Source: Parelaphostrongylus tenuis (lineage: Eukaryota > Nematoda > Chromadorea > Rhabditida > Metastrongylidae). From it: 64,000 nucleotides of DNA. Where the stretch lies: positions 1-64,000 of the forward strand of contig JAHQIW010006337.1 of NCBI GenBank assembly GCA_019055375.1, given 5' to 3'. The notes beneath the pieces are model-generated. The model saw only the letters and a program-made list of their open reading frames with translations, was not told the DNA's origin and did not search any database. The translations under genes and the position numbers were made by a program. Below are positions 38,249-38,730 of this stretch, one piece after another. How positions within the stretch are numbered: the stretch's first letter is position 1; each line of letters opens with the position of its first letter.

Positions 38249-38253
<5 letters not shown>

Positions 38254-38283
38254 GTTTAAGCTCAAAAAGGGGTTGGTACGCCA

Positions 38284-38331
38284 GGGTCATACACCGGTGT
38301 TTCGGAGGTTCGTCCTCCTCATCAGTGACCC
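38284..38331 (-). ncRNA. Hammerhead ribozyme, type I, intact core
   Basis: Inverted partner of the motif at 38614-38661. Stem II is here fully Watson-Crick (GGAGG/CCTCC). CTGATGA, GAAA, the CACCGGTG stem III and the GUA triplet are all intact, with predicted cleavage between 38290 and 38289 on the minus strand. Confidence 0.8.
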
Positions 38332-38613
38332 CCGCCCCACATTCAGCCCTGCATTGAAGCAAGGAGGGAGGCGTATGTGGTGATGGCACAGTGTACTATG
38401 ACACTGTACCATCACCACCTCTCAGACGATAGATTTTTTGCTGTTAGATCAAAAAAACAGGTTTCAAAAACAGTCGATCTTTTGAATTGGTTTTGATCTA
38501 ACAGCAAAAAATCTATCGACTGAGAGGTCGTGATGGTACAGTGTCATAGTACACTGTGCCATCACCACATACGCCTCCCTCCTTGCTTCAATGCAGGGCT
38601 GAATGTGGGGCGG

Positions 38614-38661
38614 GGGTCACTGATGAGGAGGACGAACCTTCGAAACACCGGTGTATGACCC
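38614..38661 (+). ncRNA. Hammerhead ribozyme, type I, intact core
   Basis: Stem I GGGTCA (38614-38619) pairs with TGACCC (38656-38661). CTGATGA is at 38620-38626. Stem II GGAGG/CCTTC (38627-38631, 38637-38641, one G-U) closes loop ACGAA, and GAAA is at 38642-38645. Stem III is the palindrome CACC-GGTG with no loop (38646-38653), and the cleavage triplet GUA ends at 38655. All invariant core bases are present. Such a tiny stem III is typical of hammerheads that work as dimers in repeated elements. Confidence 0.8.
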
Positions 38662-38730
38662 AGGCGTACCAACCCCTTTATGAGCTTAAACCATTCTTTT
38701 TTGGAATTATATTGAATGTTTTTTTGGGCG

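Follow-up and report, generated by a model that had tools for sequence, protein, structure and literature searches.

What kind of element consists of two hammerhead ribozymes that face in opposite directions within one palindrome? The question is raised by a locus of the nematode Parelaphostrongylus tenuis, on positions 1 to 64,000 of contig JAHQIW010006337.1 (GenBank assembly GCA_019055375.1); this whole stretch of 64,000 nucleotides is referred to below as the window. An earlier note, made from the sequence alone, had described at 38250..38695 a palindromic element whose body is two inverted ribozymes without a coding frame. We find that the palindrome is real and that its interest lies at the level of a repeat family rather than in a stand-alone inverted-ribozyme element. 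Judging from sequence comparisons, the insertion is probably a non-autonomous, retrozyme-like retroelement with a unit of about 269 nt, copied in trans by the machinery of resident Penelope-like elements (PLEs), and the palindrome probably arises by priming on both strands.

Architecture of the insertion

The two arms of the palindrome (38250-38454 and 38491-38695) measure 205 nt each and are separated by 36 nt, which gives the 446 nt reported earlier. Of the 205 positions, 200 are complementary and five differ. Since the arms are copies of each other, both together are treated as one observation, not two.

Mapping onto the repeat unit described below places the whole insertion at 38250..38756 (positions 1501-2007 of locus L002), where an inverted monomer, a junction, a direct monomer and a 3' tail follow each other. 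The left arm (38250..38454, minus strand) corresponds to unit positions 235 to 31 in inverted orientation and carries no tail. Six nucleotides that belong to neither arm, as seen from the arm comparison and the unit mapping, form the head-to-head junction (38455..38460). The right monomer (38461..38729, plus strand) is a complete unit of 269 nt and serves as the reference (unit positions 1-269). It is followed by the tail (38730..38756, plus strand), i.e. the first 27 nt of a next unit, which is the usual array end in the repeat family. The palindrome is a head-to-head pair of monomers of about 269 nt, one of them with an extra 3' tail. The left end given by the earlier note stands, but on the right the insertion runs on to about 38756; its two ends correspond to unit positions 235 (38250) and 27 (38756). 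Within the tail, comparison of ends revealed the motif ACAGTCGATCTT (38739..38750, plus strand), which is identical in the 3' end of a PLE copy, L077. At the left border lies a (TA)n run (38181..38249), the likely target according to the sequence and the comparison of flanks. Because the copy sits in this run, its own flanking repeat (ATATAT) is uninformative.

Each arm also contains an imperfect inverted repeat of 42 nt, GTGGTGATGG...CCATCACCAC, at 38377-38418 and 38527-38568. It is conserved in the family and may help the repeat RNA to fold or to bind a partner.

Sequencing reads are known to produce false palindromes, and the assembly holds near-identical mirror copies that exceed the length of the repeat and lie on the same contig (L014/L015, L005/L007 and L057); these are either large inverted duplications or assembly artefacts. 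The probability that the palindrome itself stems from misassembly or read fold-back is nevertheless negligible, since its flanks are not mirrored, the arms carry their five differences and are held apart by a spacer, and 32 of 45 arrays of the family have flanking duplications of their own (see below).

The hammerhead motif

The descriptor applied to the window asked for CTGATGA, a stem II of at least 4 bp, GAAA, a stem III of at least 2 bp, UH and a stem I of at least 4 bp. It found exactly two sites, with core starts at 38620 (plus strand) and 38325 (minus strand). In 100 first-order Markov sequences of equal length, both strands included, it found no site. This agrees with the earlier note, which had reported a pair of complete minimal type I hammerheads facing opposite ways. 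According to descriptor and fold, the right-arm hammerhead occupies 38614..38661 (plus strand; predicted cleavage at 38655/38656) and the left-arm hammerhead 38284..38331 (minus strand; predicted cleavage at 38290/38289, with the 5' product starting at 38289), and the predicted 5' product ends of the earlier note, 38656 (+) and 38289 (-), were recovered.

On the sequence, both motifs are assigned to type I, with three stems around CUGANGA...GAAA...UH and an open stem I. As written, stems I, II and III comprise 6, 5 and 4 bp in each arm. Stem III is CACCGGTG, for which a loop-less closure is impossible in a monomer; it was modelled as an A-U pair plus 2 bp with a CCGG cap. One of the arm differences is a C-to-U exchange in stem II of the plus arm, where pairing is kept as a single G-U pair.

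In each arm the hammerhead fold lies 2.4 kcal/mol above the computed minimum, a gap within the margin of the nearest-neighbour model for a motif with a non-canonical core. The long hairpin foreseen by the earlier note is computed at -415 kcal/mol for a transcript spanning both arms and is far ahead of the hammerhead fold. Consequently, cleavage would need single-orientation transcripts or co-transcriptional folding. Sub-threshold Rfam matches to microRNA precursors (MIR4208 and others in the window, MIR7533 in L070) were ascribed to long hairpins of this kind.

Conservation was assessed on 51 distinct hammerhead variants from 125 units, 14 of 139 units having been dropped by a filter. Standard pairs occupy 679 of 710 pair cells (151-304 of about 710 if one side is slid by 1-3 positions), figures that are biased upward for stem III because the filter asked for 50 nt plus one of ten stem III spellings. 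The most variable positions of the motif are N7 of CUGANGA (16 of 51 variants), the A of one stem I U-A pair (15, of which 13 give U-G) and a loop II base (14); the remaining core positions are changed in 0-3 rows each. Nearly all pairing-preserving changes are one-sided, mostly from U-A to U-G, and a two-sided change occurs in one row only. The expectation that there should be further copies with compensatory stem changes was borne out for the copies (see below) and weakly for the changes. With many near-identical copies, and with the kinship of copies ignored, this conservation is supportive of the predicted hammerhead, not proof of it.

A family of tandem and head-to-head repeats

Exact matches to the hammerhead pattern number 1,130 (606+524) in the assembly of 481.5 Mb, compared with 0 for a reversed-pattern control; the further genome copies anticipated earlier do exist. 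With the palindrome as query, at least 150 matches were obtained from the best 40 of 1,467 first-look candidates in the assembly. The repeat unit is 268-269 nt long, has a GC content of 0.45 and contains no open reading frame (ORF) for reverse transcriptase (RT) or GIY-YIG. No match to the repeat was found in viral, plasmid and phage collections. A match in a metagenome-assembled genome of Riflebacteria (L001) was rejected as chance; inspection by eye shows no complete hammerhead in it, and Rfam gives no match. In L033 and L020, one antisense frame of the unit is open (ORFs of 147 and 151 aa), probably by chance.

The arrangement of copies was counted in an unbiased set, namely 100 places listed of the 1,130 in contig order and not chosen by likeness, with pairs formed within 700 nt. 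It contains 45 neighbouring pairs, of which 34 lie on the same strand, 11 are minus-plus and none is plus-minus (tail-to-tail). Minus-plus corresponds to a head-to-head orientation, with the 3' sides of the ribozymes facing outward. The same-strand pairs are spaced 262-276 nt in 33 of 34 cases and 539 nt in the remaining one. The earlier description was correct as to the lack of a coding frame, but the palindrome is not the whole element and the family is mostly tandem. Among 59 arrays, 42 are head-to-head, 16 are single-strand and one (L068) is mixed, with one plus-to-minus step; these patterns come partly from loci chosen for palindrome likeness, and the unbiased count is that of the 45 pairs. 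The mirror-image duplicates L007 and L015 and the second L057 copy were left out of the array, flank, divergence, head-end and tail counts.

All opposite-strand pairs taken together differ by 1.6% within arrays versus 2.9% between arrays, and rare variants are more commonly shared by opposite arms (8/87 versus 39/5,392). In its DNA the family agrees with retrozymes, being made of non-coding tandem repeats within 150-450 bp that have a predicted type I hammerhead and a GC content below 50%.

Array ends and target duplications

Ends were surveyed in 62 arrays (span above 150 nt) from 56 loci. Frequently, one outer end lies just past the start of the next unit and forms the tail; 31 of 45 tailed ends fall at unit position 25-28 and the others at 18-42. 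The tail-less outer end of head-to-head arrays is mostly found at unit position ~213 to 265. Direct repeats of at least 7 nt flank 32 of 45 one-tailed arrays, compared with 4.0% of 2,196 mismatched flank pairs; the search tolerated a slack of 14 nt and reached 6 nt into the array, and the repeat lengths are upper estimates. Since these repeats surround whole head-to-head units, the units look like single insertions. The repeat shares with PLE-type insertion the inverted head-to-head ends, the one-sided tail and the short target duplication.

These ends also bear on two other explanations. Spreading of satellite DNA by unequal crossing-over and inversion, with an incidental hammerhead, would fit the tandem period of 262-276 nt and the low divergence within arrays reported below. 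We regard it as very unlikely, since the copies are scattered over many contigs, have a preferred 3' end, retain bases or pairing at the hammerhead positions, and are flanked by duplications that enclose whole head-to-head units. Even less can be said for a DNA transposon of the foldback type, or a miniature inverted-repeat transposable element, with long terminal inverted repeats. The inverted arms are indeed matched at 98%, but plain tandem arrays, the one-sided tail, the variable length of the duplications and the presence of only head-to-head inversions in the unbiased set make such an origin highly improbable.

Penelope-like elements in the same genome

Near one array, in L050, an ORF (P0121) resembles by eye the GIY-YIG domain of PLEs; it has no Pfam match of its own. 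Used as a query, it gave at least 150 scored matches among the 8,923 candidates of a loose first pass over the genome. The PLE L073 has an open frame of 893 aa with matches to RVT_1 (1.2e-11) and GIY-YIG (1.8e-4; 22.2 bits versus a cut-off of 22.6), and relatives of this frame are found in Necator, Ancylostoma and Haemonchus. L073 is a partial tandem with a direct repeat of 615 bp and an inverted piece of 91 bp. By eye, GCTACTGAATTC stands on both of its flanks, and a candidate minimal hammerhead, CTGAAGA...GAAAC-GTC, so named after what we take to be the PLE-type pattern, lies ahead of the ORF. Neighbouring PLE endonuclease matches less than 12 kb apart (among 150 places listed) are head-to-head in 15 cases, on the same strand in 6 and tail-to-tail in none. 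Six of seven further PLE 3' regions that end ahead of the tailed terminus do so within 5 nt of the point at which L073's inverted piece ends, which is where ends without a tail should lie.

The 3' termini of repeat and PLE are similar. L073 and five PLE regions reaching the terminus read CGAGGTTAWTAGACAGTCGRTCTYGGRA, the unit end of the window copy reads AAACAGTCGATCTTTCGAAT, and the repeat carries the motif ACAGTCGRTCTT. Apart from L077, the other PLE ends (L073, L074, L080, L081 and L082) differ from the end motif of the window copy at one or two positions. In ungapped comparison, the window unit matches the ends of L073 and L077 at 17 of 24 positions, and the diverged copy L071 matches them at 19 and 21 of 24, respectively. 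In another diverged copy, L022, the blocks CGAGGTT and ACAGTCG are by eye spaced one base wider. Random genomic pieces, from backgrounds that were masked for repeats and still contain PLE pieces, reach at least 17/24 against L073 in 13 of 20,000 cases (twelve at 21-24, perhaps true PLE pieces) and at least 14/24 in 489 of 20,000. If 20 nt are aligned at the end, the unit scores 14 with L073 and with L077, and 17 of 20,000 random pieces are equal or better. The distance from the hammerhead core start to the terminus is also alike (PLE, 132 nt; window copy, 137 nt); the 145 nt of L071 are not a hammerhead distance, because that copy has no hammerhead. Between hammerhead and tail, no homology of repeat and PLE was found. 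At the RT start, no stem-loop comparable to that of the anole PLE stands out, the predicted folding being no more stable than in shuffled sequences.

The PLE-like head-to-head arrangement, tail and flanking duplications would likewise be expected from the decayed pseudo-long terminal repeat (pseudo-LTR) pair of a full PLE of another family, with the 269-bp unit as its pseudo-LTR. A tblastn search with the L073 frame, in all retrieved loci but L001 and L073, found PLE pieces beside or around the repeat, outside the unit, at four array loci (L067, L050, L005 and its mirror L007). At L050, however, the array (1332-2990) splits the PLE frame, with residues 476-526 on one side and those from 558 onward on the other. 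At L005 an older block, covering unit positions 108-242 at 84%, stands just ahead of the PLE piece, with AATCCGGAATCTRAT on both sides by eye. Both cases are read as repeats inserted into PLEs. Moreover, no PLE frame bounded on both sides by units was seen in the retrieved loci, the unit has no match to L073 and lacks the PLE ORF (telomerase-like RT plus GIY-YIG), and plain arrays exist. A decayed pseudo-LTR pair is hence an unlikely source of the family.

L005 shows an older hammerhead block (84-88%) twice just ahead of PLE RT pieces (68-169 and 2769-2902, mirrored in L007), and one of the two blocks has a 15-nt repeat on its flanks. The double block reflects either an old insertion into a PLE, followed by duplication, or the movement of a composite.

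Proposed model of mobilization

The family, its unit and arrangement, the preferred end, the duplications, the PLEs of the same genome and their similar end are all plain from the sequence. To explain them we propose copying in trans by PLEs, which involves transcription, self-cleavage, possible circularization, capture by PLE protein, an internal RT start at the tail and two-strand priming as inferred steps. Transcripts of the repeat would be cut into monomers by the type I hammerhead and perhaps closed into circles. The RT and endonuclease of a resident PLE would recognize the shared 3' terminal motif and copy the repeat in trans. Copying would begin at unit position ~25-28, which lies about 137 nt past the hammerhead core; on a PLE it would begin about 132 nt past the core of the PLE's own hammerhead. 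Repeated copying through a circular or multimeric template would yield tandem arrays. If both target strands are cut and extended, two cDNAs would grow inward from one target and meet head to head. Such two-sided inward priming would explain why a palindrome forms, why the target is duplicated and why tail-to-tail pairs are missing.

The two-strand step is proposed because the anole PLE protein cuts and extends both strands (PMC11167929). In the same source, RT starts internally at sites matching genomic tails, and hammerhead cleavage is reported to be dispensable for PLE insertion in vitro; our arrays, whose head ends do not gather at the cut, are consistent with this.

The same element, likewise mobilized by PLEs, could also form its palindrome if the cDNA primes itself on an antisense template, an idea put forward for rotifer Penelope elements. 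This is the published account of head-to-head PLE inversions with junction palindromes (PMC3846280). We consider it a possible but clearly less probable route, since the arms usually differ in their outer ends (tail versus none), both of which adjoin target DNA, and since head positions are widely spread.

Several observations weigh against PLE-driven copying with two-strand priming. Within an array, the median difference between tandem units is 0.46%, compared with 2.9% between arrays; the arrays may have been shaped by homogenization or later duplication, and this low divergence leaves rolling-circle copying unproven. The nearest opposite arms (29 arrays) differ by 2.7%, about as much as arms taken from two different arrays (2.8%). 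No clustering of 5' (head) ends is seen around the predicted cut, to which 2 of 84 lie close, roughly the number expected by chance; the arrays therefore give no sign that the copied RNA is cleaved there. The likeness of the ends was spotted by eye and its significance tested afterwards. In ungapped comparison, four of five diverged copies agree with the PLE end at no more than 13-16 of 24 positions, the longest run of identity with L073 measures 7 nt, a length reached by 2,425 of 20,000 random pieces, and the 12-nt identity 5 nt from the end in both elements (12 of 20,000 random pieces) is found with L077 alone. As to the PLEs, L073 is the only complete one read, 5 of 12 further 3' regions extend to the tailed terminus and 7 end earlier, and stem II of the L073 candidate hammerhead pairs, by eye, only with one A omitted. 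Finally, the earlier note held that hammerhead covariance-model scores below threshold at both sites would speak against its ribozymes. No Rfam hammerhead model matches in the window at 38000-39000 (E<=10) or in L061, L070 and the PLE locus L073 (E<=1), in runs made without a positive control. Since no hammerhead match was obtained in any stretch tried, the PLE locus included, Rfam does not discriminate here.

Other features of the window

Remains of an RTE-type non-LTR retrotransposon in several frames lie at 28789-31852 (minus strand), with matches to Exo_endo_phos (8.2e-9) and RVT_1 (1.2e-6, just under the cut-off). The relatives of its ORF among 120 matches listed are chiefly from Angiostrongylus, Ancylostoma, Necator and Haemonchus; a few records stand under Sorex fumeus. 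The DNA thus most likely belongs to a strongylid nematode. A tRNA-Ser-like sequence is located at 35789-35862 (minus strand; Rfam tRNA, 38.4 bits). By eye, tRNA-like stretches resembling short interspersed elements (SINEs) were noted at ~37290-37360 and ~37685-37760, and ~32600-33160 has the look of a decayed mariner-type transposase.

Relation to known elements and implications

Metazoan non-LTR retrozymes are described as non-coding tandem repeats of 150-450 bp with a type I hammerhead, a GC content below 50% and target duplications above 4 bp (Cervera and de la Pena 2020, PMC7229834). Our repeat resembles them in its short non-coding type I hammerhead tandem repeats, its low GC content and its target duplications. 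It differs from them in its minimal hammerhead, the CCGG-capped stem III, the frequent head-to-head pairs and the PLE-type tail; neither 'inverted' nor 'nematod' appears in the consulted text of that article. For PLEs, inverted head-to-head ends of pseudo-LTRs have been published (PMC3846280). Head-to-head copies, a one-sided tail, AT-rich targets, a hammerhead, partial tandems and short target duplications (8-10 bp in published PLE examples) are common to them and our repeat (PMC3846280, PMC11167929). The repeat is not a PLE, because it has no ORF. It lacks the RT and endonuclease frame, its body is unrelated to L073, and stem III of its hammerhead is longer than in the GAAAC-GTC motif of L073. 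The earlier note was right to draw a link to retrozymes and PLEs: as a unit the repeat behaves like a retrozyme, and it inserts in the manner of a PLE.

In pairs of SINEs and long interspersed elements (LINEs), a short non-coding element shares only its 3' end with an autonomous partner. The same is seen here, with the differences that the partner would be a PLE and that a hammerhead and array formation are added. Among helminths, the schistosome Sm-alpha (PMC6155905) and W elements carry hammerheads. Our family, too, is a helminth hammerhead repeat.

That PLEs are the likely movers of retrozymes, since both carry hammerheads and co-occur, has already been proposed (PMC7761336). As far as our literature search tells, the new part is the sequence link formed by the shared end, the spacing and the insertion signature; neither a nematode retrozyme nor such a 3'-end link was found in the titles and abstract openings searched, a scope that left most subscription papers outside. 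Going further, we lean slightly towards a general reading in which animal hammerhead retrozymes can be PLE-dependent, the SINE counterpart of Penelope. Of the features common to them and the PLE, they would have kept only a hammerhead and, at a set spacing from it, the motif where RT starts. Palindromic insertions would then result from one circular or multimeric RNA when both strands of a target act as primers.

The shared 3' terminus, the nearly equal spacing and the head-to-head-plus-tail signature make the proposed pairing of animal retrozymes with PLEs as their inserting enzymes testable, and the head-to-head rule, found in the repeat as well as in the PLEs of P. tenuis, bears on the mode of PLE insertion itself.
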